Below are positions 1 to 50,722 of a DNA stretch of 50,858 nucleotides, in pieces. A program made the position numbers and the translations under genes. The DNA comes from an uncultured Opitutia bacterium. Lineage in GTDB: Bacteria; Verrucomicrobiota; Verrucomicrobiia; Opitutales; Opitutaceae. Numbering within the stretch: position 1 is the stretch's first letter; each line of letters starts with the position of its first letter. Location: NCBI GenBank assembly GCA_903827245.1, contig CAIKHO010000016.1:1-50858 (forward strand), given 5' to 3'. The notes under the pieces are model-generated. The model was given only the letters and a program-made list of their open reading frames with translations. It did no database searches and was not told where the DNA came from.

Positions 1-419
1 GTGGCGGCCAGACGGCGGACGCGAAGAAGGATGGGCAAAGTGGCGGTGGCGGAGGTGGCCAGCAGTCGGCCAGTAGCTCCAAGACAGGTGGCGGTGGCGG
101 CGATGCACAAGGCGGGGCGATGGGCGGACCGCAGGGTATCCAGGTGGGCCAGTTGCTCGGCGATGGCCAAGGGACGGCCCAGGGTCAGCAGGGGGCGCAG
201 ACCGGTGGCGGCAGCAACAAGCCGCAGCAGGTCGCCCTCGGCGACAAAGCCATGCAAATCAATCAGGCTCCCCCCACGCCCGGCGTGGTGGGAGCGCAGG
301 TCGCCGATCCCATGACCAGGCCGGCGGATGCGAAAATGGGCACCGGCGCGGGCGGCCCCGGCGGCGACAATACCAATCGCGGATCAGAAAAAGGGCGGAC
401 CATGCCCAAGGGGCTGTGA
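1..419 (+). CDS. Gly/Gln-rich protein, C-terminal part (5' truncated by window edge)
   Basis: The reading frame is open from base 3 to the TGA at 417-419 and continues upstream of the window, so only the C-terminal ~138 residues are seen. They are dominated by Gly, Gln, Ser and Ala in short runs (GGGGGGQQS, GGGGGDAQGG) and end in a polar tail, MPKGL. No fold or motif is recognisable. The next gene on the same strand starts 22 bases downstream and is also a Gly/Gln-rich protein, so the two probably form one transcript and may be related secreted or surface proteins. An ATG at 120 lies in this frame, but the frame is open well before it, so it is probably internal. Function unknown. Confidence 0.6.
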   Translation, partial: GGQTADAKKDGQSGGGGGGQQSASSSKTGGGGGDAQGGAMGGPQGIQVGQLLGDGQGTAQGQQGAQTGGGSNKPQQVALGDKAMQINQAPPTPGVVGAQVADPMTRPADAKMGTGAGGPGGDNTNRGSEKGRTMPKGL

Positions 420-441
420 GAAATTCCATATTTCCCGGCAA

Positions 442-1443
442 ATGAAAACGCGGCGCTTTGTCCTGGTTTTACTCGGACTTTTTTCTCTCTCGTGCTTGGC
501 GCGCGCGACTACCTTGATCTATCCGGTGGAGGCCATTGATGACCTCTGGAAACTCCCGGAGACCGAATTTCGCGACAAGTACGCGGGCATCAATGTCACC
601 AATCTCAGTGTCAGTGACGAGGGCTGGTACGTGCGCTACCGGCACGAGAACCTGACCTATTTTTTCGGCCCGCTCGCCGTCCGGGACGAGGCGCAGAAAA
701 AAATGTGGGAGCTCGAAGCGGTGCGCGACGCCGCGTTGAAAACCCGTCCGGCGCTGGCCAACAGCCAGATTGATTTCGTGAAGTTCACCTACTCCGGGGT
801 CTACGGCGCGCGAGGCAACACCCCGTACACGGGCAAGGGCGGCCAGGGGGGCAAGGACGGTTCCGGCACCCAGCAGGATGGCTCGGGCAAGGATGGCCAG
901 GGCAGCGACAAGACCGGCTCCGGCAAAGATGGCTCGGGCAAGGACGGCTCCGGGGGCAGCAGCGACAAACCGGGTGGAAACGGCAGTGGTGCAGGGCAGG
1001 GCGACATGGCGGGAGTGCAGCTGGCCGGGCTCGACGGAGGCCAAGGTGGCCAGGGCGGACAACAAGGCCAGGGAGCCAACTCCACCGGCAGCCAAAACGG
1101 GCAGCAGTATGGGACTGACGGCCAGAACGGGCAGAACGCGGGGCAATCAGGTCAATCCGGGACCGGAGGCAGTTCGAGCTCGGGCAGCAGTGGACAAAGC
1201 GGACAGCAGGGTGGGCAGCAAGGTGGCCAACAGGGCAGCCAGGGATCAAGTCAGGCCAGCTCAGGCGGCCAGTCCGGCAGCCAGCAAGGCGGAGGCCAGA
1301 GCGGCGGACAATCCGGTGGACAACAGGGTGGCCAGTCCGGCAGTCAATCTGGCGGCCAGAGTGGCGGCTCCTCGGGCCAGGGCGGAGGAAGCAATCCCCT
1401 GCAGTTGATCGTGGGCCTGTTTCGCTCGATTCTCGGACTCTGA
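442..1443 (+). CDS. secreted protein with long Gly/Gln/Ser-rich C-terminal tract
   Basis: The 333-residue product starts at the ATG at 442, which gives a clear signal peptide (basic MKTRR, hydrophobic VLVLLGLFSLS, Ala-rich cleavage area). An open frame extends upstream to an ATG at 328, but that start would bury the signal. Residues ~25-125 form an ordinary small domain of unknown family. From about residue 130 to 320 the protein is low complexity: GKDGSG-type units first, then GQ/GGQ/SGGQ units. A short hydrophobic tail follows (LIVGLFRSILGL). The tract is encoded by degenerate GGC-CAG-type repeats. It may be a cell-surface or matrix protein, but there is no direct functional evidence. It is convergent with the VWA/MotA operon, with a 25-bp palindrome between them. 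Confidence 0.75.
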   Translation: MKTRRFVLVLLGLFSLSCLARATTLIYPVEAIDDLWKLPETEFRDKYAGINVTNLSVSDEGWYVRYRHENLTYFFGPLAVRDEAQKKMWELEAVRDAALKTRPALANSQIDFVKFTYSGVYGARGNTPYTGKGGQGGKDGSGTQQDGSGKDGQGSDKTGSGKDGSGKDGSGGSSDKPGGNGSGAGQGDMAGVQLAGLDGGQGGQGGQQGQGANSTGSQNGQQYGTDGQNGQNAGQSGQSGTGGSSSSGSSGQSGQQGGQQGGQQGSQGSSQASSGGQSGSQQGGGQSGGQSGGQQGGQSGSQSGGQSGGSSGQGGGSNPLQLIVGLFRSILGL

Positions 1444-1537: not shown

Positions 1538-2536
1538 TCAGAGATCCTGCAGCGCGATGAACGCCCCGCCATGTTCGTAGCAGACCGTGCGCATGAGATT
1601 GGCGAACTTCAGGCCGGTGTTGCCCATGGAAAATTGGTACTGGATCGTCGTGGGAAAGCCGATGGCATTGATGACCACCCTCCGGTTGCCCTTCTCATCG
1701 ACGGGATTGAGCTCGTCGAGCCGCTTGATGACCGGGTCGGCCGTGTCGATGAACTCGTCGCCGAAAACGTAGATACCCATCTTCATCTTTTCGTTGCCCG
1801 GCTCGTAGAGCGTGCGCATGGCGCGGAGCATGCCGGGAACGGGGCTGCTGATCGTCTCCTGGTTGTAATGACGAAGCGTGCGCTTGATGAGATCACGGGT
1901 CTCGGTCGTATCGGCGAGCCAGCCGGACCGGTTGTTTCCGAGAATGAAGCGCCCGTCGGCGTCGAGCACCTGGATCCCGTCGACCGAGGGATAGACATCG
2001 AGCACCTCGTCGATCTTGCGGATGGCGATGCCCCAGAGACCGTCCGTGTTCGGGTCGCGCATGCTGCCCGAGGTATCGATGATGAAGACGATATAATTGC
2101 TGCCCACGGGCACGCCGATGGGCAGGGGCTTGACGTTGGGGAGCACCATCTCGGGCTTCTTCTGGCGGGCGGCGATTTCCTTCTTCAACTCATCGATGTC
2201 GACCAGGAGCGCCTTCTGGCCGCGTTTTTCATTTTGCAGCTGCCCTTCCAGTTCGTCGATCAGCGCGTGGATCGAGTCGTTTTTCAGGCGGGCATCCACG
2301 ACAAGGTTGGTGATGCGCGCGTTGGACCTTTCGAGGTCCTCCTTGGTCGAGTGGATCCGAGCCAAGGCCGCGATGCGCTCGGCGAGAATGCGCCGCAGGC
2401 TGGCGAGGGTCTCCTCCTTGGCCTTGTCCTGGGTGCTCACACTGAGGACGAAGATCAGGATGATGGCGCCAAAACCGCAGCAAATGCAGTCGAGGAAGGC
2501 CAGGCTGAACACCGTGGTGGGGCGGCGGCGGATCAT
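1538..2536 (-). CDS. membrane-anchored coiled-coil VWA protein with intact MIDAS
   Basis: The 332-residue product has three parts. Residues ~9-34 are a single N-terminal membrane helix containing FSLAFLDCICCGFGA, with an Asp at 16. Residues ~36-125 are rich in charged heptads and look like a coiled coil. From ~145 there is a von Willebrand A domain whose MIDAS motif DTSGS (D154-S158) is complete. The anchor resembles MotB/ExbD in having one N-terminal helix with a membrane Asp, and the VWA domain would lie outside the cytoplasm. It is the last gene of a four-gene minus-strand operon and overlaps the preceding VWA gene by 4 bases (2533-2536). Its likely partner is the MotA/ExbB-type channel at the operon head. 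The VWA call is firm; the MotB-like role is inferred. Confidence 0.9.
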   Translation of the reverse strand: MIRRRPTTVFSLAFLDCICCGFGAIILIFVLSVSTQDKAKEETLASLRRILAERIAALARIHSTKEDLERSNARITNLVVDARLKNDSIHALIDELEGQLQNEKRGQKALLVDIDELKKEIAARQKKPEMVLPNVKPLPIGVPVGSNYIVFIIDTSGSMRDPNTDGLWGIAIRKIDEVLDVYPSVDGIQVLDADGRFILGNNRSGWLADTTETRDLIKRTLRHYNQETISSPVPGMLRAMRTLYEPGNEKMKMGIYVFGDEFIDTADPVIKRLDELNPVDEKGNRRVVINAIGFPTTIQYQFSMGNTGLKFANLMRTVCYEHGGAFIALQDL

Positions 2537-3600
2537 GTGTCGGGCCAGGATTTGGCGGGGCTGACCAGGGCTCCCTTGCTGGCGTTGGCCAGTTCCCAGT
2601 AGAGCCCGGGGGCGGCGGGATCGCCGTTCATGGGCATCAGGATGGTGCTGACCGGAATGCGCTGCGGCAGCTGGCGGACCGCGGCCTCGAAAAATTTCAC
2701 GCGCAACTGTTGGTCGACGTCGCCGTCGCTGGGCATGGAATCGCTCTGGGTGGGCAGGCCATCGGTGAAGAGCACGATGCTCTCCGGCAGGTGTTTCATG
2801 TAACGGATCGTGGTGAAGGCCCGCTCGAGGTTGGCGCCGCCTTGGGGCACGACGGCGTGCAGCTTGTTCACGACCTCTTGGATCGCCTGGCGGTCGTCAG
2901 TGCTGTACCACTCATCCGACCGGCCGGGCAGCACCGGGACGGTTTCATCGTTGAAAAACATGACTTGGAAACGGGTGTGGGGATCCAGCGTGGCGATCAT
3001 CCACTCGAGCCCGTGCAGCGTGCGCTGCCACTTGGGCGCCTCGCGTTTTTTCACGTCCGAATCCGCCAGGTGGCTGGCCGCGGCATCGATGGTGTCATCC
3101 AGCATGCTGCCTGACGTCCGCACCATGAAGAGAATGTAATCGCCCCGGAGCTTGACGCCCGTGAGGTACTGGCGGCGATCGGTGTTGGGGATCGGCAACG
3201 GCGCCGCCTTTTCATCCGTGGGCAGGGCCTTCTTCTCGCCCAGCAGGGTCGCGAGGGCGTCCTTCATCGCGCCGGTCTGCTGCAGCATGAGGAGCAGTTC
3301 TTTCTGGCGATCCGTCAGTTTGAGCTGGTCCTGCGTGTTTTTCGCATTGATGTCCTGCAACTCGACCTGCGCGGCGGCCAGCGCCCGGGCGATGCGGTCA
3401 ACCTCCTGCTGGCTCATCGCCACGTCGCTTTCCATGTGGCGGACACGGGACTGGGCATCCTCCAGGCTCTCCTTGTCCATGGCGGACTTTTGGGGAATCG
3501 TGAGGATGAACACGAGGATCATGGCCCCAAAGCCGCAGCAAATGCAGTCAAGGAACGCCAGGCTGAACACCTCCGTTTCGCGACGCTTGGAGGCGATCAT
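2533..3600 (-). CDS. membrane-anchored coiled-coil VWA protein with degenerate MIDAS
   Basis: The 355-residue product is a paralogue of the downstream VWA gene. It has the same anchor FSLAFLDCICCGFGA (Asp18) at the N-terminus, a Gln/Glu/Lys-rich coiled coil at ~40-125 and a VWA-type domain from ~150. The MIDAS reads RTSGS (R161-S165), so the first metal-binding Asp is replaced by Arg and metal-dependent ligand binding is probably lost or changed. The anchor DNA is also nearly identical to that of the paralogue, which suggests duplication with strong constraint. The gene lies 21 bases downstream of the actin-fold gene and overlaps the next VWA gene by 4 bases. The two VWA proteins may form a heteromeric stator-like unit. 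Confidence 0.88.
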   Translation of the reverse strand: MIASKRRETEVFSLAFLDCICCGFGAMILVFILTIPQKSAMDKESLEDAQSRVRHMESDVAMSQQEVDRIARALAAAQVELQDINAKNTQDQLKLTDRQKELLLMLQQTGAMKDALATLLGEKKALPTDEKAAPLPIPNTDRRQYLTGVKLRGDYILFMVRTSGSMLDDTIDAAASHLADSDVKKREAPKWQRTLHGLEWMIATLDPHTRFQVMFFNDETVPVLPGRSDEWYSTDDRQAIQEVVNKLHAVVPQGGANLERAFTTIRYMKHLPESIVLFTDGLPTQSDSMPSDGDVDQQLRVKFFEAAVRQLPQRIPVSTILMPMNGDPAAPGLYWELANASKGALVSPAKSWPDT

Positions 3601-3621
3601 GACTGGCGAAGATTAAGGGAA

Positions 3622-5115
3622 TCAGGCACGGGAAGCACCCGAGCCGGCCAAGTGGACAAAGAGCACCTCGGCGGCATGGGCCCCGCTGCGGATGACCATG
3701 TGATCGCCGGCCTCGACCACGGTTCGGAGGAGCGATTGGGCGCCCGTGGCTCCGGCCGGCGGCGGGGCCGTGTCGACAAACCAGAGCCGGCCACCCTCGC
3801 GTACCAGTTGAACAAGGCAGTCGCCGGCGGCATTGAAGACCTCGGGCAGCACGACGTCCGCGCACGCGCTGGCGGCACCGAGGGTGAGGCTGCCGTTGCC
3901 GCCCAGGATGTGGCCGATGCCGTCGATCACCGCATGCGTCGGCATCGGGCGCGGATCGGGCAGCGGCGCCCGATGCAGGCGGGCCTCCCAAGGTGCGCCG
4001 ACAGCCCGGCGGGCGTCGCCGGCCGGAACGGACGTTTCCACCGCGACATCGGCAAGGTCGGCCGGTACGGAGAGGCGTTTCTCGCCGATGCAGGCGGCGC
4101 CGGCCGCAGCCGCTCCACGGGGCAGGCGCAACAGCCGGCCGAAGCCCGCGGAACGCAAGCGGGTCTCCAGGCCGGGCAGCCAGGCGGCGCGATCAGTCAG
4201 CGCGATGGTACAGGCTTCGGGGCCATGGGAAGAGCCGGGAACAAAAAGCTGCAACGCGTGGACGAGGGCAGTCACAAAGCCCTGGGCGTCCGCCACAAAC
4301 TGCTCGTGCTTGACCAACATTTCATAGTTGCGGTTGGCGGTATTAACCTGGAAGCGGCACTCGGCCTCTCCACCCAACAGGAAATCCTTGGTCTGGCGGT
4401 AGAAGGTCTGCTCGATGCGGCCGTCGGCCAGGATGTCAAAGGCCGTGTGCCGCAGGAAGCGGTTGCCCATCGTGCCGTTGAGATGCTTGAGCAGCTGGGC
4501 GAAGCCCGATTGCGGGAGATGGATGAATTTTTTCCGCTCCAATTGCGTTCCGGTCGTCAGAAGCGTAAATTCTGCGCCGTGCAGATGGACATCCAAGACG
4601 ACCACCGGGAGGCTGGGATTGAAGCCGCCGGCCCGCGGATCGCAGAGCGATGCGCAAGCCATGTCGATGATCCCGGCCAGCGGCAGCTTGAGCTCGCCCG
4701 CCATGCCGAGGAGGAGCCCGACCTTCTCCTCTTCCGTCGTGATATCCTTCAGGTAGGAACCGGGAACGGCCAGGACCACCTTTTGTACCGATCCGGCCAG
4801 TGTCGCCAATTGCCGGGAGAAATCGCTGAGAAAGAGATAGGCCAGCTCGGAAAACGAGGCCGGCTTGCCGGCGACCGCCAGCGGCGACGGTTCGTGGGCC
4901 AGCTTCAACAGGAAGGTGTTTACCACGCTCCGGGGCTGCACGAACCAGACGTCCTCGGCCGCGCGGCCGAAATGGAATTTCCGCCCGTCGTGATAGGCAA
5001 AACCGGGCCAGTCGGGGCTGCCTGCGGCACCGGTGCCGAGCAGTGCCGGGTCGTTCATTTCCGCCGACGCCACCTGCAGGCCCGCGTCGCAAAGTTCAAT
5101 GCCGAGTGTTGCCAT
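3622..5115 (-). CDS. actin/Hsp70-fold (ASKHA-like) protein with possible FHA-like C-terminus
   Basis: The 497-residue product lacks a signal peptide and membrane segments. Its order of motifs follows the ASKHA fold: an N-terminal strand-loop (TLGIELCDAGLQVA) like the phosphate-1 loop, KVVLAVPGSYL like the Hsp70 VPA.. segment, GIIDMACASL like the NEPTAAAL segment, VVVLDVHLHGAEFTLL like the phosphate-2 loop, and CTIALTDRAAWLPGLE like the adenosine motif. The Gly-rich nucleotide-binding residues are eroded, so ATP binding is uncertain. Residues ~395-490 alternate short strands with GNGSLTLG and GDHMVIRSG, reminiscent of an FHA domain; this part is tentative. The gene lies between the channel gene (17-base gap) and the VWA genes, so it may be the cytoplasmic component of that complex. 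Confidence 0.75.
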   Translation of the reverse strand: MATLGIELCDAGLQVASAEMNDPALLGTGAAGSPDWPGFAYHDGRKFHFGRAAEDVWFVQPRSVVNTFLLKLAHEPSPLAVAGKPASFSELAYLFLSDFSRQLATLAGSVQKVVLAVPGSYLKDITTEEEKVGLLLGMAGELKLPLAGIIDMACASLCDPRAGGFNPSLPVVVLDVHLHGAEFTLLTTGTQLERKKFIHLPQSGFAQLLKHLNGTMGNRFLRHTAFDILADGRIEQTFYRQTKDFLLGGEAECRFQVNTANRNYEMLVKHEQFVADAQGFVTALVHALQLFVPGSSHGPEACTIALTDRAAWLPGLETRLRSAGFGRLLRLPRGAAAAGAACIGEKRLSVPADLADVAVETSVPAGDARRAVGAPWEARLHRAPLPDPRPMPTHAVIDGIGHILGGNGSLTLGAASACADVVLPEVFNAAGDCLVQLVREGGRLWFVDTAPPPAGATGAQSLLRTVVEAGDHMVIRSGAHAAEVLFVHLAGSGASRA

Positions 5116-5132
5116 GGCGGATCAGGCTCCGT

Positions 5133-5984
5133 TCAGGAATACACGTCGCTGGTCTCGTCCCGGGTCGGAACCTTCATGACATCGATCAGCTTGTCGCGGC
5201 AGTGGGTCTGGGTCTCGATGATGAAGGCTTCCTGCCGCGACTGCACGACGTGCAGGCAATACATCAGGACGATGCACAGGGCGAGGCCGACAAACGTCGA
5301 GTTGAAGGCGAGGCCGAGGTTCTGGGTCACCGGCGAGATGTCGCCGTGAATCGCGACTTCCGCGAAGGAGAGGGCGCCGCCGATGCCGCGTACCGTGCCG
5401 ATGAAGCCGATGGCGGGAATGGCCCACGCGATGTAACGGACGAGCGAGAGGGTGGAGTCGAGTTGGTCGGCCGCGAGTTCGGCGCGCTCCCGGACCGCAT
5501 TGGCGGCGTCCCGCACGGAGTTCGTGGCGTGCAGCCGGTGCAAGGCCGCGAGCATGCACTCAGGCAGCAGGCGCTCACGCCAGCGCGGCTCGCGCTCGAT
5601 CGTGGATTTGAGTTCCTTGTAGCGGTCGAGCGCGTCCTCCGGGATGATGCGCTCGCCGGGCTGGACCCGGACAAAGTCGTGCTTGAAGAGCGCCCGCTCG
5701 CGGCTGATCTGCATGAACTTGTACCCAAGCACGATCAGGCCCCAGAGACAGAAGGTAATTTCCCACTCGGGCTCGTGATCCTTGATGATGATGTAAATCG
5801 GCCGCTCCTGCATGATCTTCATGTCGCCCTGCGCGGCCATCACGCGCCGCTTGAGCATGAACTCGTCGGCGTTGGGCGTCACGTAATACGCGTAGAAGGT
5901 CATGACCGCCAGGATCGAGACCAGCAGGCCGACATTCGGCACGAGGAACTCGAGGGAAAGAAAGCCCTTGTTGCGCGAGATCAT
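5133..5984 (-). CDS. MotA/TolQ/ExbB-type proton channel protein
   Basis: The 283-residue product has a first helix at ~12-35, a second at ~74-91, a cytoplasmic region of about 95 residues, and a C-terminal helix pair. That pair contains AIPAIGFIGTVRGIGGAL followed by LAFNSTFVGLALCIVLMYCL, the typical helix-3/helix-4 signature of MotA/TolQ/ExbB proteins. Such proteins conduct protons in the inner membrane together with a MotB/ExbD/TolR partner. No ordinary ExbD or MotB follows; instead the operon encodes an actin-fold protein and two VWA proteins with an Asp-bearing membrane anchor. It is the first gene of the operon. Family assignment is firm; the specific function is unknown. Confidence 0.88.
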   Translation of the reverse strand: MISRNKGFLSLEFLVPNVGLLVSILAVMTFYAYYVTPNADEFMLKRRVMAAQGDMKIMQERPIYIIIKDHEPEWEITFCLWGLIVLGYKFMQISRERALFKHDFVRVQPGERIIPEDALDRYKELKSTIEREPRWRERLLPECMLAALHRLHATNSVRDAANAVRERAELAADQLDSTLSLVRYIAWAIPAIGFIGTVRGIGGALSFAEVAIHGDISPVTQNLGLAFNSTFVGLALCIVLMYCLHVVQSRQEAFIIETQTHCRDKLIDVMKVPTRDETSDVYS

Positions 5985-6097
5985 TTTTGGGGATGGTTCG
6001 TTGGATCGGAGGTGGTGATCGCCCGGTGCCCGGTTCGGACAGCAACCCGGGCGGCTGGCTCCATCGGCTTGTTTTTGCCGCCCGGCTGCATCAGTAG

Positions 6098-6144
6098 ATG
6101 CATATGCATTTGATTTGATAAAAAAAACGATCTCCCCTTATTTA
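6098..6144 (+). promoter_or_regulatory. candidate promoter with adjacent 12-bp palindrome
   Basis: A possible -35 box TTGATA (6115-6120) and -10 box TATTTA (6139-6144) are separated by 18 bases in an AT-rich stretch upstream of the lipoprotein gene at 6191. The perfect palindrome ATGCATATGCAT (6098-6109) lies just before the -35 box and could be a regulator site. Read from sequence only; start site not known. Confidence 0.35.
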
Positions 6145-6190
6145 ACGCGAGTCTAAAGTGGCAGCACCAACCACCTTTTAACCCAACCCC

Positions 6191-6862
6191 ATGGCGCCAA
6201 CATTCGTCGCAGTGAAACCGCAACCCGCGCTGAAAAAAATCATCTGCCTTGGCGCGGCCCTCGCCGTCGCCGGCCTGGCCGGTTGTTCCTCCGGCGTGGC
6301 ACCATCCTCGACCGTCAGCGGCGCAGGCAAGGGCGCGGCGATCGGCGGACTGGGGGGCGCCGTCATCGGCAATAACAGCAGCATGGGCACGGGGGCCGGC
6401 CTGGTGGGGGGCGCGGCGGCCGGCGCGCTGGTCGGCGGTATCATCGGCATGGTGCAGGATGCCAAGGACCGCAAGGAGCAGGACCGGCTCTCACAGGAGC
6501 GGGCGTACCAGCAGGAGCGGGCCCGGAAGCTCCAGGACGAGGCCAAGCAAAAGGCAGCCATGGACGAGGAGCTTTCGATTGCGCAGGGCTTTCAAATTTC
6601 CGACCTGGAACTGGGCGAAGCGCAGAAGCGCGAGGCCGTCGCGAACGAGCAGCTCAAGGCTCTCCGGGAGGAACGGGCGGCCGCCATGGCGCGGAAGAAG
6701 GCGCTGGACGACGCGCACGATCACACTCTCGCAGCCGAAGCGGAAATCGCCCGGCTGCAGGAAGAGCTGGCCCGCCTGAAGGGCGAGGGCACCGGACCCA
6801 AGGCCACGGGAACGGGAAGTGCGGCTGCCGCCGCCGGGACGGCGGCGGGTCCGGGCCCGTAG
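6191..6862 (+). CDS. glycine-zipper lipoprotein with coiled-coil C-terminus
   Basis: The 223-residue product starts with a lipoprotein signal ending in the lipobox LAGC (Cys32). Residues ~44-90 form a glycine-zipper segment (GAGKGAAIGGLGGAVIG, then GGAAAGALVGGIIG), which usually inserts into or oligomerises at the outer membrane. Residues ~95-200 are rich in Glu, Lys, Gln and Ala and look like a coiled coil. The end is a Gly/Ala-rich tail. Glycine-zipper lipoproteins are envelope components and their precise role here is unknown. A second lipoprotein gene follows 85 bases downstream on the same strand. A candidate promoter lies upstream at 6115-6144. Confidence 0.8.
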   Translation: MAPTFVAVKPQPALKKIICLGAALAVAGLAGCSSGVAPSSTVSGAGKGAAIGGLGGAVIGNNSSMGTGAGLVGGAAAGALVGGIIGMVQDAKDRKEQDRLSQERAYQQERARKLQDEAKQKAAMDEELSIAQGFQISDLELGEAQKREAVANEQLKALREERAAAMARKKALDDAHDHTLAAEAEIARLQEELARLKGEGTGPKATGTGSAAAAAGTAAGPGP

Positions 6863-6947
6863 TTTGCCCGGCCACACCCAGCCACCCGCCGTTCGCTTCA
6901 TGAGGGGAGTGAGTTTTAACCCAAGCCGAATTTAAACACCGCCTTTC

Positions 6948-7670
6948 ATGCTCCCTGCAGCCCGCCGACGTTTTTTGCAGGCCATCGCGGTCGCAGCTGT
7001 GGCCGTCGCTTGGACGGGATGTGCCAATACGTATGCGGTCAAGGTTGATGCCATCGCCAAGGACAAGGCGAAGGAAGCCTCCTCTTACCGGATAAAAAAC
7101 AAGAATGCATCACTGCCGGAGGACAACCTGCGGTACAAGGAGGCGACCAATTACGTGAAAACCGCCTTGTCCGGCCGGGGATTGTACGAGGCTCCCCCCG
7201 ATGTGGTTCCGGACATCATCGTGGAACTGGATTACGGCATCGCCCCTCCCAGTGTCCGTATGGAGGAAACCTCGGTGCCGGTCTATTCCCAGACTGGCGG
7301 CGGAGTCAGTTACACGCCGATGCCGGTAACGGACCCGAAGGGCAACGTGACCATGCGCACGGTGCCGGTATACGAGCCGACCCACTCGGAGCTGGTCGGC
7401 TACCGTGACGTGATCACGCCCGTGGCGATCTACGAAAAGTACCTTCACATCAGCGCACGCGAAAACCGGGAAAAGAGCGAAGGGAAGGCGCCCGCGGAAA
7501 TCTGGAGCGTGAACACGAGTCTGGAAGACGAGAGCAAGGACCTCCGGAAATATCTGCCGTTGCTGGCGTCGGCCTCGATGGAATCCATCGGCACGGACAC
7601 CGGCAGCCAGAAGACGATCAAGCTCAAGGAAAGCGACCAGAATGTCGGCTTCGTGAAAAAGGGGATGTGA
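6948..7670 (+). CDS. putative lipoprotein, DUF4136-like
   Basis: The 240-residue product has an Arg-rich, Ala/Val-rich signal followed by the lipobox WTGC (Cys25). The mature part begins with a VKVDAIAKDKAKEASSYRIK-type segment. It continues with YVKTALSGRGLYEAPPDVVPDIIVELDYG, which resembles DUF4136-type lipoproteins (a variable residue pair, then a D-x-x-V/I beta strand). The family link is by pattern only. It follows the glycine-zipper lipoprotein gene and probably shares its transcript. Function unknown; envelope location expected. Confidence 0.75.
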   Translation: MLPAARRRFLQAIAVAAVAVAWTGCANTYAVKVDAIAKDKAKEASSYRIKNKNASLPEDNLRYKEATNYVKTALSGRGLYEAPPDVVPDIIVELDYGIAPPSVRMEETSVPVYSQTGGGVSYTPMPVTDPKGNVTMRTVPVYEPTHSELVGYRDVITPVAIYEKYLHISARENREKSEGKAPAEIWSVNTSLEDESKDLRKYLPLLASASMESIGTDTGSQKTIKLKESDQNVGFVKKGM

Positions 7671-12002: not shown

Positions 12003-14795
12003 ATGACCAAAACTATTTTCCATCGTATCCTGATTGCCGCGGCACTCCCCGCCTTCCTGCTGCCGCTCGTCCGGGGTGATGTCGCCGTCAACTGGCTCGG
12101 GCAGAAAGCCCCGGCGGTGACGGGTGGCGTGAGTTTCGGCGTGCCGTTTGCCCGCGGGGCGATGCCGAAGAACCAATCCTTCACGTTGACGACGGCCGAC
12201 GGGAAAAGCCTGCCCGTCCAGACTTGGCCGCTCGCGTACTGGCCGGACGGTACGCTGAAATGGGAAGGGGTCGCCACGGTGGCCGGCCCGGATAACACCG
12301 GCGTTTTCACGGTCAAGCCGGGCCCATCGGCCGGGATGGAAGGCCAGCCGGTAGTGCGAGTGACCAACAGCGATACGACCTACGCGATCGACACGGGACG
12401 CATCCAGGTCCGCATTCCCAAGTGGGGATCGACGCTGATCGATTCGATCGTCATCGCCGGGCGCGAAGTGGCGCGCAAGGGCGAGCTGGTTTGCATCCTG
12501 CAGGACGGCCCGGACGCCGAGGCGGCCGACACCCCGGCGCCGCGCGAGAAATATGCGACCAAGGTCGTGAACGTCACGATGGAGCAGTCGGGCCCGGTGC
12601 GGGCGGTGGTGAAAATCGAGGGCGTGCATCGCGGCCTGAAGAGCAACCGGGAATGGCTGCCCTTCACTGTGCGGCTGTATTTTTACGCCGGGCAGGAGTC
12701 GATCCGGATGGTGCACACCGTCATCTACGACGGCGACCAGGAGAAGGATTTCATTCGCGGCCTCGGCGTCGTCTTTGCCGTGCCCATGCGCGAGGAGATT
12801 CAAAACCGCCACGTGCGCTTCTCTGGTGAGAACGACGGCCTGTGGGCCGAGCCGGTCCAGCCGATGAAGGGGCGCGACGGACGTTTCGTCGGCGATCCGC
12901 AGACCGGCGCGGATGTTTATCCCCTGCAGGCGGAGGGCAAACGCGTGCCCAATCGCGGACAGGTCAACGCGCGCAGCCAAGGCTGGCTGGCCGATTGGGC
13001 GGTGTGGGACGACTTCAAACTCGTGCAGCCGAATGCCGATGGCTTCACTGTGGTGAAGCGCACCAATCCCGCGAGCGTCTGGCTGCCCGCGGGCGGGGGC
13101 CATCGGGCCTCCGGGCTGGTTTTCGCGGGTGATGTGAGCGGAGGGCTCGCGGTCAGTTTGAAAAATTTCTGGCAGTCCTACCCGGCGTCGCTCGAGGTGC
13201 ACCACGCCGGCCGGGGCGAGGCCGAGCTCTATGTGTGGATGTGGTCGCCGGATGCGCCCGGCATGGACATGCGGCACTATGACACCCGCGCCCACGGGTT
13301 GCAGGCCGTGTACGAGGATGTGCAGCAGGGCCTGAGCACGGCGACGGGTGTGGCGCGCACCAGCGAGCTCATGCTTTTTCCGTCCGCGGCGGTGCCCTCG
13401 AAGGAGGACACTGCGAAGATGGCCCGGACCGGCGCGGAGCCCCCGGTGATGGTCTGCACGCCGCAAGCCCTCCACGAGGCCCAGGCCTTTGGCATCTGGG
13501 GCCTCGAGGATCGCTCGACGCCGGCCAAGCGCGCGATCGAGGAGCGGCTCGATGCCACGCTCAATTTCTACCTGACGCAGCCCGACCAGCGGCGCTGGTA
13601 TGGCTTCTGGGACTTCGGCGACGTCATGCACTCCTACGACAACGAGCGCCACGTCTGGCGCTACGACCTCGGCGGCATGGCGTGGGACAACTCCGAGCTC
13701 GGGACCGACATGTGGATCTGGTACAGCTTCCTGCACACCGGCCGCGCGGATGTGTTCCGCATGGCCGAGGCGATGTCGCGGCAGACCGGGGAGGTCTCTG
13801 TTTATCATCTGGGCCCGATGGCCGGGCTGGGTTCGCGGCATGCGGTTCGCCATTGGGGCGACGGCGCCAAGGAGGCCCGCATCAGCCAGGCCGGTTATCA
13901 CCGGTTCTATTATTACCTGACGACGGACGAGCGCACGGGCGACGTCATGCGCGACGTCCTCAACTCCGATTACAAGACCGTGCAGTTCGATCCCATGCGC
14001 GAGGCGCAGCCCATCACGGCGCGCGAGAAGGCGATCGCCCCGACCCGGGTGCGCCTGGGGCCCGACTGGCTGGCCTTCATCGGCAACTGGATGACCGAAT
14101 GGGAGCGCACCGGCGACACGAAGTGGCGCGACAAGATCCTCGCCGGTGTGGAGAGCATGTCCACGATGCCCCTCGGCATGCGCACCGGGCGCAACCTCGT
14201 GATGGGATACGATCCCGCGACGGGAAGACTCTACCAATTGGACGATCAGGCCGGCACCTACAATCTCGCCACCATCATGGGCGGCGCCGAAGTCGCATTC
14301 CAGGTCAGCCAGATGATCGACGATCCCCGCTGGGACAAACTCTGGCTCCAGTACTGCCGTCTCTACAGCGCGCCGAAGGAAATGATCATCCAGGACATGA
14401 AGACGGGGACCGAAGGAATGGACGGATCGTATGCGCGCGACGGTCGCCTGGCCGGGTGGGTTTATTACAAGACGGGCAACGAGGCTTTCAAGCAGGTGGC
14501 CTTGAATGCGCTTGAGGACCACGGCCGGGGCGGACGGGGAGGGGGCGGTGGCGCGCTCCGCCATGTGGAAGGACCCGCGGTACTCAACCCGGTGGACGAA
14601 GGGCTGGGCGGCACCAATGGCGCGGCGCAAAACGGATTGGAGACCATCACCATGCTGGGTTTTGTCGGCGCCTATCTGCCGGCTGAGCTTCCGCCGCCCC
14701 CCCCGTCAGCTGACGGTCGCGGTGGCCGTGGTGGCCAAGCAGGGCGAGGCGCCCGGGGCGGACCCCAGACGCCGCCACCCGCCGCAAAGGAGTGA
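12003..14795 (+). CDS. secreted PcRGLX/YetA-like protein, probable exo-rhamnogalacturonan lyase (PL26-like)
   Basis: The 930-residue product begins with a signal peptide (MTKTIFHRILIAAALPAFLLP). The mature N-terminus reads VNWLGQKAPAVTGGVSFGVPFARG and then WPLAYWPDGTLKWEGVA, the pattern of the RIFT-barrel domain of PcRGLX/YetA-like proteins. A central beta-sandwich and a C-terminal alpha-rich part (WYGFWDFGDVMHSYD, YDLGGMAWDNSELG) follow, as in PL26 exo-rhamnogalacturonan lyases, which cut pectin rhamnogalacturonan-I from the end. The last ~50 residues are Pro/Gly-rich and atypical. Activity is inferred from family resemblance, not from checked catalytic residues. It heads a carbohydrate cluster that includes a jelly-roll protein and a GH2 enzyme. 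Confidence 0.8.
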   Translation: MTKTIFHRILIAAALPAFLLPLVRGDVAVNWLGQKAPAVTGGVSFGVPFARGAMPKNQSFTLTTADGKSLPVQTWPLAYWPDGTLKWEGVATVAGPDNTGVFTVKPGPSAGMEGQPVVRVTNSDTTYAIDTGRIQVRIPKWGSTLIDSIVIAGREVARKGELVCILQDGPDAEAADTPAPREKYATKVVNVTMEQSGPVRAVVKIEGVHRGLKSNREWLPFTVRLYFYAGQESIRMVHTVIYDGDQEKDFIRGLGVVFAVPMREEIQNRHVRFSGENDGLWAEPVQPMKGRDGRFVGDPQTGADVYPLQAEGKRVPNRGQVNARSQGWLADWAVWDDFKLVQPNADGFTVVKRTNPASVWLPAGGGHRASGLVFAGDVSGGLAVSLKNFWQSYPASLEVHHAGRGEAELYVWMWSPDAPGMDMRHYDTRAHGLQAVYEDVQQGLSTATGVARTSELMLFPSAAVPSKEDTAKMARTGAEPPVMVCTPQALHEAQAFGIWGLEDRSTPAKRAIEERLDATLNFYLTQPDQRRWYGFWDFGDVMHSYDNERHVWRYDLGGMAWDNSELGTDMWIWYSFLHTGRADVFRMAEAMSRQTGEVSVYHLGPMAGLGSRHAVRHWGDGAKEARISQAGYHRFYYYLTTDERTGDVMRDVLNSDYKTVQFDPMREAQPITAREKAIAPTRVRLGPDWLAFIGNWMTEWERTGDTKWRDKILAGVESMSTMPLGMRTGRNLVMGYDPATGRLYQLDDQAGTYNLATIMGGAEVAFQVSQMIDDPRWDKLWLQYCRLYSAPKEMIIQDMKTGTEGMDGSYARDGRLAGWVYYKTGNEAFKQVALNALEDHGRGGRGGGGGALRHVEGPAVLNPVDEGLGGTNGAAQNGLETITMLGFVGAYLPAELPPPPPSADGRGGRGGQAGRGARGGPQTPPPAAKE

Positions 14796-48468: not shown

Positions 48469-49173
48469 ATGCCTGTGCCGCTCACGCTCGCGCCCGTTCT
48501 CGCCGTCACCAACGTCGTCCAGGTCTTCGCCGGCGCCGACCACATCGGCCAGATCATCACCGGGCTGCTCGGCGTGTTCAGCATCATCGCCTGGGCCATC
48601 ATGTGGGGAAAGCACCGCGACCTGAAGGAACTGCGCCGGCTCAACCTGATCTTCGAGTCCCAGCTCCGCAACGAGCGCTCGCTGCTCGACCAGCCCGAGG
48701 CGGCGCGCAACCAGCGCGACATTCCCTACGCGGACCTGTTCGCCGACGCGGTCGAGGCCTACTGGCGGGCGGCGGCCATCGGCAAGGAACGGGGCTCGAC
48801 CGACACCCGCGCCCGCCTCGAGCATGCCGAGAACGCCCTGCAGCGGGCGTTGGCGCGGCAGACGCTGCGCTATGAATCCAGCATGGTCTTTCTCGCCTCC
48901 ATCGTCTCTGGTGCCCCTTTTCTCGGGCTGCTCGGCACGGTCTGGGGCGTGATGACCGCCTTCAGCGATGCCGCGGCCCGGGGCTCGGCCGACATCATCA
49001 CGCTGGCCCCCGGCGTGGCGGGGGCGCTGCTCACCACCATCGCCGGCCTGCTGGTCGCCATCCCGTCGGTCTTCGGCTACAATTATCTGTTCGCCTGCAC
49101 CAAGCGCCTGATCACCGAGCTGGAAAATTTCGCCAGCTCGCTGGCGGATCGCATCGAACTGGAGAGCAAGTGA
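48469..49173 (+). CDS. exbB: ExbB/TolQ-type proton channel protein
   Basis: The 234-residue inner-membrane product has a first helix at ~28-45 (ITGLLGVFSIIAWAIMW), a cytoplasmic stretch, and the signature pair APFLGLLGTVWGVMTAF and TIAGLLVAIPSVFGYNYLF. It forms a pentameric channel with ExbD/TolR. It is followed by the ExbD-like and TonB-like genes, the classic exbB-exbD-tonB order. TolQ is the alternative name. Confidence 0.93.
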   Translation: MPVPLTLAPVLAVTNVVQVFAGADHIGQIITGLLGVFSIIAWAIMWGKHRDLKELRRLNLIFESQLRNERSLLDQPEAARNQRDIPYADLFADAVEAYWRAAAIGKERGSTDTRARLEHAENALQRALARQTLRYESSMVFLASIVSGAPFLGLLGTVWGVMTAFSDAAARGSADIITLAPGVAGALLTTIAGLLVAIPSVFGYNYLFACTKRLITELENFASSLADRIELESK

Positions 49174-49256
49174 TGACGCGCGCCCCATCAACCGATCAGG
49201 CGCCACGCGTAGCCGGGCCGGCCTGATTTCACCGCGGCCAGACCAACGACTTTCCC

Positions 49257-49685
49257 ATGGCGAGAACCTTCCGACGTCAGCGCACCGGCCAGCCGATCGC
49301 GGAGCTGAACGTCACCAACCTCATCGACCTCGGGTTCATGCTGCTGATCATCTTCATGATCACGGCGCCGCTCATCAAGCCGGAGCAGACGATCCCGGTC
49401 AATCTGCCGTCCGAATCGAAGAGCCCGCAGGCCAAGCCGGATCCCGCCACGAAGTTTGAAACCGTCACGGTGAAGGCCGACGGTACCTACCTGCTGGGCA
49501 CCCAGGCGCTCTCGCTGGCGCAGCTCTCGCGGGAGTTTGCGAACTTCGCACTCCAGCCCAAGCCGCCGGTCTTCCGCTTGCGAATGGATGCCAAATCGAC
49601 GGCCCAGCAGTATGTCGCCGTGCTGGCGGAAATGGAGAAGCACCACCTCTCCCGCATCAGCATCGATACACAGATCCAAAACTAA
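49257..49685 (+). CDS. exbD: ExbD/TolR-type protein
   Basis: The 142-residue product has one N-terminal helix, NVTNLIDLGFMLLIIFMITAP, with the proton-carrying Asp at the expected place, then a periplasmic ExbD-like domain (LPSESKSP..., VTVKADGTYLLG). It follows exbB by 83 bases and precedes the tonB-like gene, so it should complete the channel. Confidence 0.95.
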   Translation: MARTFRRQRTGQPIAELNVTNLIDLGFMLLIIFMITAPLIKPEQTIPVNLPSESKSPQAKPDPATKFETVTVKADGTYLLGTQALSLAQLSREFANFALQPKPPVFRLRMDAKSTAQQYVAVLAEMEKHHLSRISIDTQIQN

Positions 49686-49719
49686 GGCGGAGCGATGCCA
49701 TTGAAACTCAGCCATCAAT

Positions 49720-49789
49720 GTAGCAGCCAAGGTAACGAGGCTGGGTTTGGTGACCCACCTCAAACCAGCCTCCTCACGTCGGCTGCTAC
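49720..49789. repeat. imperfect 25-bp inverted repeat (family B palindrome)
   Basis: GTAGCAGCCAAGGTAACGAG starting at 49720 mirrors the complement of 49765-49789 with 4 mismatches in 25. The right arm starts CCAGCCTC and ends TCGGCTGCTAC, as at 7970-7994. It lies between exbD and the tonB-like gene and may separate their expression. Confidence 0.8.
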
Positions 49790-49825
49790 CGGCGACTGCA
49801 TCGTTGCTGCTAAGGATCGGCCCCT

Positions 49826-50722
49826 TTGCCCGTTTATATCCGCATGAGTACCGCCATGGCCGACCGTTATCCCAATGCTGTTCTCGCCTCCTCGCTGATC
49901 CACGGCGCGGTGATCGCCTTGTTGTTGCTCATGACCTATGTCGTGCACCGCCAGGTGAAGGAGAGCCCGCATATTTTTGAGCTGGTCGCAGGGGAGGGTG
50001 ACAACTACGGCGCCAAGGAAGCTCCGGCCCTGGGCATCGCGGGCGGACTCAAGGTGCCGGCGACCGAGGCGCCGAAACCGGCGGAGCCCGCGCCCATTGA
50101 ACCGGCCGCGCCGGTCCCGGCCCCTTTGGAGGCGGTGGTGCCGCCGAAACCCAAGCCGGCCGATCCCGCGGCCAAGATCGGGACACTCGTCAGGAACATC
50201 GAAAAAAAGAGCGACCGGGCGGTAAAAAAGGTCCAGGCGGATGCGGAGAAGCAGCGCAAGCTGACGAAGGAACAGTTCGACCAGCAGAACAAGAGCAAGG
50301 CGGCGGTCACGTCCAAGAATTCGGCCGCCGGGATGAAGATCACGAAAGTGGACAGCGAGGGCATCGCCAAGGGCGTCGTCGGGGGCTCCACCGCCAACAC
50401 CACCGGCGGCGCCGGCGGCAAGGCGCTGGTGCGGGAGGACGGCGATGTGCTTGACGCCTATTTCTCGCTGCTCAAGCAGAGGTTAAAGTCCGCCTTCGAG
50501 CCGCCGCCCGGGCTGAGCGACACCCTGGTGGCCAGCGTGGAGGTGCGCAGCAATTCCGACGGCACCCTGTCACGCGCCCGGATCACGAAATCATCGGGCA
50601 GCGCGGAGTTCGACCGTGCCGTGCTGGATGCGATCACCCACACCCAGATGCCGGCCCGTCCGGATGGGCGCAGCGAAACGATCAGCTTCCCGTTCACCAT
50701 GCGGGAGAAGGATGCCGAGTGA
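49826..50722 (+). CDS. tonB: TonB/TolA-like energy transducer
   Basis: The 298-residue product has an N-terminal helix (VLASSLIHGAVIALLLLMTYVV), a Pro/Ala/Lys-rich periplasmic linker, a Lys/Gln-rich helical part like TolA, and a TonB C-terminal domain with VASVEVRSNSDGTLSRARITKSSGSAEFDRAVLDAI. The TTG start at 49826 has AAGGA 9 bases ahead; ATG alternatives are at 49844 and 49856. It would transmit the exbB/exbD energy to outer-membrane transporters. A second TonB-like gene lies at 37185. Confidence 0.88.
   Translation: MPVYIRMSTAMADRYPNAVLASSLIHGAVIALLLLMTYVVHRQVKESPHIFELVAGEGDNYGAKEAPALGIAGGLKVPATEAPKPAEPAPIEPAAPVPAPLEAVVPPKPKPADPAAKIGTLVRNIEKKSDRAVKKVQADAEKQRKLTKEQFDQQNKSKAAVTSKNSAAGMKITKVDSEGIAKGVVGGSTANTTGGAGGKALVREDGDVLDAYFSLLKQRLKSAFEPPPGLSDTLVASVEVRSNSDGTLSRARITKSSGSAEFDRAVLDAITHTQMPARPDGRSETISFPFTMREKDAE

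Follow-up and report, generated by a model that had tools for sequence, protein, structure and literature searches.

Four adjacent minus-strand genes lie within the window, the 50,858-nucleotide stretch of Opitutaceae DNA analysed here. They encode a MotA/TolQ/ExbB-type channel subunit (gene 1), a protein with the predicted fold of the Hsp70 nucleotide-binding domain (gene 2) and two membrane-anchored VWA proteins (gene 3, VWA1; gene 4, VWA2). The reading that we favour, as moderately probable, is that genes 1, 3 and 4 form an ion-driven trans-envelope motor with a VWA axle, which would act on lipoproteins and surface proteins, gene 2 serving as a regulator. Ion motors of the 5:2 type are at work in flagella and gliding, in nutrient uptake and envelope upkeep, and in phage defence. 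In 2025, a motor with a VWA-headed axle was proposed, with no function assigned (PMC12204202). The parts list given below (two lipoproteins, a TPR protein, a secreted protein and the Hsp70-fold protein) provides this orphan motor with named candidate partners, which are open to knock-out, tagging and pull-down; it also places an Hsp70-fold protein beside a putative proton motor.

Organization and conservation of the cassette

The four ORFs run 5984–5133, 5115–3622, 3600–2533 and 2536–1538. They are spaced by a 17-base gap, a 21-base gap and then a 4-base overlap between the VWA1 stop and the VWA2 start; the tight packing reported in the preliminary description is confirmed exactly by these coordinates. 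Long antisense ORFs also cross the cassette (for example 3436–5349, plus strand) and are taken as probable artefacts of GC-rich sequence.

The gene order is unbroken in all of 24 independent loci. All four genes are present in 22 of them, including L007, in which VWA2 is truncated by the contig end; in the other two the contig stops inside VWA1 (L019) or past the channel (L009). In other Verrucomicrobiota families the synteny is largely conserved as well, with some exceptions, and the conserved synteny to which the preliminary description had looked was thus found. Among 387 Verrucomicrobiota genomes, the channel scored above 200 bits in 24, and the VWA pair was present in 23, all among those 24; in the remaining one the channel lies 269 bases from the contig end. 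VWA1 and VWA2 are neighbours in 22 of the 23 genomes. In G157, VWA2 sits on a different contig, and in G294 the VWA pair is separated from the channel; the pairing is therefore not strict. A tblastn search of a plasmid collection gave no match to the queries.

The protein distances of the four genes are correlated, with Pearson coefficients of 0.95–0.98 (0.98 for VWA1 and VWA2) when L007 (VWA2 fragment), L065, L074, L075 and L076 are omitted. L065 lies on the same contig as L014, and this duplicate was removed from the residue counts as well; L079, being a VWA1 row, was removed from the VWA2 set for the residue counts and the correlations.

The channel subunit

Gene 1 (5133–5984, minus strand; 283 residues) scores 50.6 bits against Pfam MotA_ExbB, for which the cut-off is 22.9. 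It aligns with the ExbB of the same genome (hhalign E 3.8e-8), the channel Thr being aligned with the ExbB Thr, and both results agree with the channel type assigned earlier. Four hydrophobic stretches were located (residues 9–27, 76–94, 180–212 and 229–247), and the two pore-type threonines, T197 and T230, are invariant (44/44). In the PDB sequence search, the channel matched TolQ just at E 0.25 or worse, behind an unrelated enzyme (E 0.034).

The VWA proteins and the proposed replacement of ExbD/MotB

Gene 3 (2533–3600, minus strand) encodes a membrane helix with Asp18, a predicted coiled coil and a VWA domain, the last of which matches Pfam VWA_3 with 36.3 bits (cut-off 27). Gene 4 (1538–2536, minus strand) is built likewise, with Asp16 in the membrane helix followed by a coiled coil and a VWA domain. 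It falls under the Pfam cut-off (VWA_2 E 0.034); its AF2 model resembles VWA/I domains (Foldseek E 2e-6), with BatB among the bacterial fold matches, and has a helix spanning residues 36–124. Each VWA protein has a single strong N-terminal hydrophobic segment, which contains the Asp; an additional weak segment in gene 4 (residues 135–153) corresponds to the beginning of the VWA fold. The order described earlier for these two genes, an N-terminal helix with a membrane Asp and then a VWA domain, was reproduced, and the Asp is invariant in both (D18 of VWA1, 45/45; D16 of VWA2, 43/43).

The metal sites (MIDAS) of the two proteins are different. VWA2 retains an intact DxSxS motif (D154, 42/42), whereas that of VWA1 is altered in the window to R161xSGSM, with Arg in place of the first Asp; across 45 rows, residue 161 is Arg in 28, Glu in 10 and Asp in 7. 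These data bear on how the helices would be paired. With a single channel gene, the cassette might support two separate homodimeric motors, in which the pentamer would hold two copies of VWA1 or two copies of VWA2. Such an arrangement fits the homodimeric state of known B subunits and the separate contig of VWA2 in G157; however, the adjacency in 22 of 23 genomes, the stop/start overlap in the window, the VWA1–VWA2 distance correlation and the complementary metal sites speak against it, and we regard it as rather unlikely.

The preliminary description had proposed that the VWA proteins replace ExbD/MotB. The genome contains five ExbD genes, each beside one of four other channels, leaving none spare, and this agrees with the proposal, as do the invariant Asp and Thr residues. 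However, when the N-terminal helices of the VWA proteins were compared with ExbD by hhalign profiles, no significant sequence relationship emerged, so the likeness to ExbD rests on position and on the Asp. In Pfam, the VWA proteins gave neither an ExbD match nor an OmpA-type peptidoglycan-binding (MotB) match. The VWA proteins might instead be passengers at the channel edge, attached to the side in the manner of TolA/TonB, while an ExbD encoded elsewhere occupies the pore. Such side attachment has been reported for a first vWA family, which has tolR-like pairs and a TPR gene (PMC12204202). Here, no ExbD is spare, the helix Asp is invariant and, by reading, the SHLS motif is absent from both VWA proteins and their helices contain no His; side attachment is thus very improbable for this cassette.

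The Hsp70-fold protein

Gene 2 (3622–5115, minus strand) encodes a protein of 497 residues. In its AF2 model (pLDDT 79.2), residues 1–351 adopt the fold of the Hsp70 nucleotide-binding domain (Foldseek E 4.6e-16; VIA Z 31.4, rmsd 2.9 over 340 residues) and are followed by a C-terminal β domain; the ASKHA-like nature proposed for the middle gene is thereby upheld at the level of the model. The fold is shared with Hsp70s including Ssz1: the Ssz1 ATPase gave Z 31.0 and ordinary Hsp70s gave Z 29.5–30.6, all within about 2 Z units. Different from Hsp70, gene 2 has no Pfam HSP70 match, and nothing in Pfam, NCBIfam or PADLOC matched it up to E 1. A Pfam scan of 24 homologues gave eight weak families, each in a single homologue, and no HSP70, and the PDB sequence search gave no match. 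At the columns of DnaK DLGGGTFD, gene 2 carries DLHLEGAD (D175, 33/33), as mapped through a weak alignment (probability 3.9%); judged from the sequence, the glycine loops of Hsp70 are apparently lost. An FHA-like C-terminal domain, suspected by eye, was unsupported; the PDB sequence search listed four matches, the best at E 0.43.

At E up to 1e-5, gene 2 was found in 11 of the 387 genomes; all 11 carry the cassette, and the gene adjoins the channel. It is missing from family f2 and was not recognized in f28, so the core does not require it.

The combination of VWA and Hsp70-like parts recalls the NorD- or Bat-type VWA chaperone systems, and the cassette could encode a sensor or assembly device around a static or gated pore. 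BatB among the fold matches of VWA2, the Hsp70-like partner and the typical use of VWA heads in protein binding are in line with such a device. However, the four proteins of the cassette have no AAA+ match in Pfam, and the residues that form the ion path in 5:2 motors, namely the channel Thr and the helix Asp, are invariant, which makes this explanation decidedly unlikely.

Partner families in Opitutaceae

The flanking genes, which were omitted from the preliminary description, appear to be part of the system. Head-to-head with gene 1 lies a gene (6191–6862, plus strand) for a coiled-coil lipoprotein, its lipobox recognized by eye, with a Gly-zipper (Pfam Gly-zipper_YMGG E 8e-5, under the cut-off). 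Among 120 Opitutaceae genomes, it scores above 140 bits in 42/42 genomes with the cassette and 1/78 others, the 140-bit line having been chosen post hoc, once scores were seen to fall from 144 to 97 bits. At E 1e-6 the family is found in 80/120 genomes, comprising 42/42 with the cassette and 38/78 others, the latter with short or weak likeness. A second lipoprotein (6948–7670, plus strand; lipobox by eye) is DUF4136-like (E 0.004, under the cut-off) and occurs in 42/42 genomes with the cassette and 7/78 without it; four of these seven are at least 92% complete.

A secreted protein whose N-terminal domain is conserved and whose tail is rich in Gly, Gln and Ser (328–1443, plus strand; likely Met start at 442) and a TPR membrane protein are each present in 39/42 genomes with the cassette and 1/78 others of the same 120. 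Both are retained with the cassette even when 0.6–2.2 Mb distant, and the L029 version of the secreted protein carries a TSP_3 repeat. These co-occurrences are raw genome counts that ignore phylogeny; the single control gene does not track the cassette (22/42 vs 39/78). The 3′ part of another secreted protein, rich in Gly/Gln, occupies 1–419 (plus strand), and contig C62 (L110) ends with its 5′ part, adjoining the TPR gene; this protein is likely a further partner.

The neighbours recur in many Opitutaceae loci. Beyond this family, just a Gly-zipper lipoprotein recurs, in 2/4 loci of f2 by profile; families f4, f28, f33 and f70 gave no lipoprotein match.

This recurrence also bears on a Zorya-like anti-phage role. 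In PADLOC, the channel weakly matches ZorA2 (E 9.4e-5), and the Gly-zipper lipoprotein weakly matches LeoBC (E 5.6e-5) and BrxB (E 0.006); the latter two matches are taken as coiled-coil and low-complexity likeness. Like ZorAB, the cassette would be a MotA-type channel rewired for another use. However, the VWA proteins have no OmpA-type match, ZorB-, ZorC-, ZorD- and ZorE-like matches are absent from the four proteins of the cassette and from six others scanned, the same neighbours are seen at many Opitutaceae loci and the co-occurring proteins are of envelope and surface type. We find an anti-phage role scarcely credible.

Proposed mechanism

In the VWA-axle motor that we favour, a TolQ-like channel pentamer would encircle two VWA-protein helices in the inner membrane, in the manner of 5:2 motors, the pair most likely being a VWA1–VWA2 heterodimer. 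When the helix Asp, opposite the Thr ring of the channel, is protonated, the VWA pair would turn, and the coiled-coil stalks would pass the motion on to periplasmic VWA heads. VWA2, with its metal site intact, may grip a partner, whereas VWA1 would have lost such grip in this lineage. Towards the outer membrane, the heads may act via the two lipoproteins (Gly-zipper and DUF4136-like), in concert with the TPR protein in the inner membrane and the secreted proteins. If so, the motor would serve to place, export or anchor surface material. Gene 2, its ATPase activity probably lost, may bind the cytoplasmic part of the channel and control assembly or gating.

A broader proposal, to which we give somewhat less than even credence, makes the motor the driving unit of a distinct trans-envelope machine with eight or more proteins, powered by the proton gradient and able to export, place or retract surface material. 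Its parts would be the proton-driven channel, a VWA heterodimer axle, an Hsp70-derived pseudo-ATPase acting as a regulator on the cytoplasmic side, the TPR protein of the inner membrane, the two lipoproteins at the outer membrane and secreted proteins, one or two in number, of low-complexity or calcium-repeat type.

Comparison with known systems

The core was put forward as a candidate undescribed system in the preliminary description, which does not hold, since the idea of VWA proteins in place of ExbD/MotB within a TolQ-like pentamer was published, with an AF3 model, in June 2025 in Mol Biol Evol (PMC12204202), where it concerns the second of two vWA families. Within the literature searched, this is the only paper with the architecture. 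Its TPH-vWA/TolQ-like sets, for which Verrucomicrobia are named and the function is given as unknown, resemble the cassette in the TolQ-like gene beside a pair of unlike vWA genes, the absence of a tolR/exbD for the channel (here, no spare exbD in the own genome), the helix Asp, the lack of an SHLS motif (here by reading) and the Thr ring; the likeness is one of architecture, as described for that family, whose seed protein is from Idiomarina. Different from the cassette, a term search of the paper's text found no actin, Hsp70, ASKHA, FHA or chaperone, and its section 8 mentions neither a lipoprotein nor a TPR or secreted partner in connection with the second family. In a term search, 'von Willebrand' and 'Zorya' did not occur in PMC9389320, nor did 'VWA' and 'von Willebrand' in the text of PMC12505986. 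Within the literature searched, two elements are new here: the four further families that track the cassette in 120 Opitutaceae genomes, and a middle protein whose model has the Hsp70 nucleotide-binding fold, apparently without glycine loops.

ExbBD and TolQR(A)-Pal share with the cassette a TolQ/ExbB-type channel, a partner with one Asp-bearing helix and linked lipoproteins. The cassette differs in having VWA heads for the ExbD/TolR domain and a helix unalignable to ExbD, and in lacking TolA/TonB; from MotAB it differs in that its VWA proteins show no Pfam match to an OmpA-type peptidoglycan-binding domain. The Agl-Glt gliding machine of Myxococcus (AglR, AglQ, AglS) likewise combines a MotA-type subunit with two MotB/TolR-type partners and outer-membrane lipoproteins (PMC4488436). 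It also has the β-barrel outer-membrane proteins GltA/B; in that machine, VWA is carried by the outer-membrane lipoproteins CglB and CglD, whereas here it is carried by the proteins with the putative pore helices.

Conservation of the cassette within Verrucomicrobiota

The source genome is 3.55 Mb in size and distributed over 91 contigs; the window covers bases 1–50,858 of contig C16. On the minus strand of the window, the channel gene (5133–5984), gene 2 (3622–5115), VWA1 (2533–3600) and VWA2 (1538–2536) have the positions and spacings reported in the preliminary description. We collected 24 related loci, with channel identities of 65–85%, from assemblies labelled Opitutaceae, Opitutae, Opitutus, Oleiharenicola or Verrucomicrobia. 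None of them departs from the same-strand arrangement channel–gene 2–VWA1–VWA2. All four genes are present in 22, counting L007, whose VWA2 is truncated by the contig end; in the other two the contig ends inside VWA1 (L019) or after the channel (L009).

The VWA1 profile matched 24 of 387 Verrucomicrobiota genomes, one of them weakly (G222, E 3e-4). The remaining 23 all contain both VWA1 and VWA2, which adjoin each other in 22; in the exception, G157, they are on separate contigs (loci L079 and L123). In 21/23 genomes the channel is directly upstream of the VWA pair, whether or not a middle gene intervenes. The contig of G158 ends before this position, and G294 (locus L085) has the channel and gene 2 on another contig. 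Taken together with the unbroken order in the 24 related loci, the synteny proposed as a check on the system is largely conserved in Verrucomicrobiota.

At E 1e-10 the channel profile matched 92/387 genomes. Scores above 200 bits occur in 24 (lowest 217; next score 104 bits), of which 23 are the VWA-pair genomes; in the 24th, G320, the channel is 269 bases from the contig end. Protein distances of the four cassette genes are correlated (Pearson 0.95–0.98, 30 to 40 rows), a pattern compatible with joint inheritance but one that any vertically inherited genes would show.

At a threshold of E 1e-5, gene 2 was detected in 11/387 genomes, all with the cassette and all adjoining the channel. Families f4 and f33 carry weaker relatives at the same place, and all four loci of family f2 have no gene between the channel and VWA1. 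In family f28 (L077, L078, L079, L083 and L084), this place is taken by one ORF of 268–457 aa, the longest overlapping the channel ORF, which does not match the gene 2 profile. By eye, it resembles a shortened gene 2.

No spare ExbD for the channel in its own genome

The channel protein scored 50.6 bits against MotA_ExbB and aligned with three ExbB proteins of its own genome (hhalign probability 95%, E 3.8e-8). Two residues aligned to the ExbB Thr positions, T197 and T230, are invariant in 44/44 rows; G196, R199, G200, F227 and N228 are also invariant (45/45 rows, one genome counted twice). The genome contains five MotA_ExbB genes and five ExbD genes. As judged from coordinates, each ExbD adjoins one of the four non-cassette channels: one at C16:49296 beside the channel at C16:48799, two on C30, and one each on C78 and C90. 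No spare ExbD is left for the cassette channel in its own genome, in line with the preliminary description. The C16 pair belongs to a separate ExbB, ExbD and TonB/TolA-like set at 48469–50722 on the plus strand, the TonB/TolA label being assigned by eye.

The VWA pair

Both VWA proteins start with a positively charged stretch, followed by one helix (in the window, FSLAFLDCICCGFGA). The helix Asp is kept in 45/45 rows of VWA1 and 43/43 rows of VWA2. Because the N-termini are positive, the VWA heads would be located in the periplasm. When the N-terminal helices were compared by profile with four ExbD proteins encoded in the source genome, the result was not significant, and hence, at the sequence level, the likeness to ExbD is one of position and residue, without detectable descent.

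The first MIDAS Asp of VWA2, D154, is conserved in 42/42 rows, and both Ser residues are also kept; the corresponding position of VWA1 is R in 28, E in 10 and D in 7 of 45 rows. The predicted VWA2 model (pLDDT 73.5, falling below 50 at the N-terminus and over most of the membrane helix) matches VWA/I domains, among them BatB and the LapA vWFA domain. Since the VWA genes pair and their metal sites are complementary, we favour a mixed VWA1/VWA2 axle.

Gene 2 has a predicted Hsp70-like fold

Gene 2 matched no family in Pfam, NCBIfam or PADLOC. Its predicted model (pLDDT 79.2) adopts the fold of Hsp70 nucleotide-binding domains (Foldseek E 4.6e-16), which bears out its earlier assignment as ASKHA-like; residues about 370–490 form a separate β domain. 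The best VIA match was a chain of the ribosome-associated complex (Z 31.4, rmsd 2.9, 340 residues), followed by the Ssz1 ATPase (Z 31.0) and ordinary Hsp70s (Z 29.5–30.6); with values so close, the model points to no single kind of Hsp70. Residues 3–241 are co-linear with DnaK of the same genome, but weakly (probability 3.9%, E 0.011). On this weak mapping the phosphate motif 2 Asp is conserved (D175, 33/33), the GGGT loop reads HLEG in the consensus and the adenosine motif has no Gly pair. Owing to the latter two changes, the ATPase activity may be weak or absent.

Four partner families occur with the cassette

Recurrent neighbours were identified by reading the flanks of 47 loci and then tested in 120 Opitutaceae genomes, 42 of which carry VWA1 at E 1e-30 (cassette genomes) and 78 of which do not. 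A Gly-zipper coiled-coil lipoprotein (6191–6862; lipobox and location by eye) is head-to-head with the channel gene. It exceeds 140 bits in 42/42 cassette genomes and 1/78 others; the best match in all remaining genomes is below 84 bits, yet 80/120 genomes match at E 1e-6. PADLOC also matched it weakly to LeoBC and BrxB, probably through low-complexity likeness. A DUF4136-like lipoprotein (6948–7670; lipobox and location again by eye) was found at E 1e-15 in 42/42 cassette genomes and 7/78 others. Among the 42, it lies no more than 6 kb from VWA1 in 33 and on another contig in 9. Four of the seven other genomes are 92–100% complete, with matches of 103–133 bits; therefore, this family also exists without the cassette.

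The secreted protein (328–1443), whose gene is convergent with VWA2, occurs at E 1e-8 in 39/42 cassette genomes and 1/78 others. A REP-like inverted repeat lies between the two genes (about 1437–1522). The TPR inner-membrane protein (C62:4605–6299) shows the same counts, 39/42 and 1/78, at E 1e-20. Its gene is probably just beyond the left end of the window, because the first 40 bases of the window recur at C62:6676, although over the 290 bases up to where C62 ends the two sequences are not letter-identical. Beside the TPR gene, divergent, is an M48-type metalloprotease lipoprotein gene (L110, contig C62, 3559–4455, minus strand; by eye, HExxH). Such a gene accompanies the TPR gene in 9/13 loci, even with the TPR locus distant from the cassette, and is a possible further partner.

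The sole non-cassette genome with the Gly-zipper, secreted and TPR families, G450, is 75% complete, and the cassette genomes without one partner (G403, G407, G408 and G410) are 80–86% complete. As the control, one gene from the window (PcRGLX-type, 12003–14795) was present at E 1e-100 in 22/42 cassette genomes and 39/78 others. In three genera of mixed presence (g2, g6 and g20), the cassette and its four partners are present or absent together (12 genomes among the members listed, same thresholds). Fisher p values range from 1e-25 to 1e-31 but take no account of shared descent, and so serve as description only. The TPR and secreted genes are retained at about 60 kb from the cassette in G405 and 0.6–2.2 Mb away on the contig in G463, G223 and G393, so linkage alone does not explain their presence.

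Relation to published systems and proposed function

The preliminary description called the system undescribed. Its core architecture is already in print: PMC12204202 describes a TolQ-like channel with an unlike TPH-vWA pair and no exbD, Verrucomicrobia included, and proposes that a TolQ-like pentamer encloses two Asp helices, which turn. Our data agree with that proposal as presented there; conservation within Verrucomicrobiota is an addition. In our searches of open-licence PMC papers we found neither an Hsp70-fold partner nor lipoprotein, TPR or secreted partners for this architecture, the second vWA family of that paper.

The two lipoproteins, the TPR protein and the secreted proteins, which are Gly/Gln/Ser-rich or, in one relative, carry a TSP3 repeat, point to the outer-membrane side. 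We therefore favour a machine that would pull on or move outer-membrane and surface components, with adhesion, surface export, coat assembly or movement as candidate outputs. The TSP3 relative is at L029 (12468–13988, minus strand; Pfam TSP_3, 25.0 bits, at the cut-off). Thrombospondin type 3 repeats usually bind calcium.

Partner genes in other families

In two loci of f2, a family without gene 2, a Gly-zipper lipoprotein gene and the channel gene are again arranged head-to-head: L082 (E 1.1e-9) and L086 (E 9e-6). A gene in L081 is similar by eye but fails the profile, and L080 has none. Loci of f4, f28, f33 and f70 matched neither lipoprotein profile. Upstream of the channel and on the same strand, L076 of f33 (3107–7501) encodes two proteins: one of 729 aa matches the TPR profile (E 1.2e-31), and the other, of 698 aa, looks PEGA-like and sulfatase-modifying-factor-like by eye.
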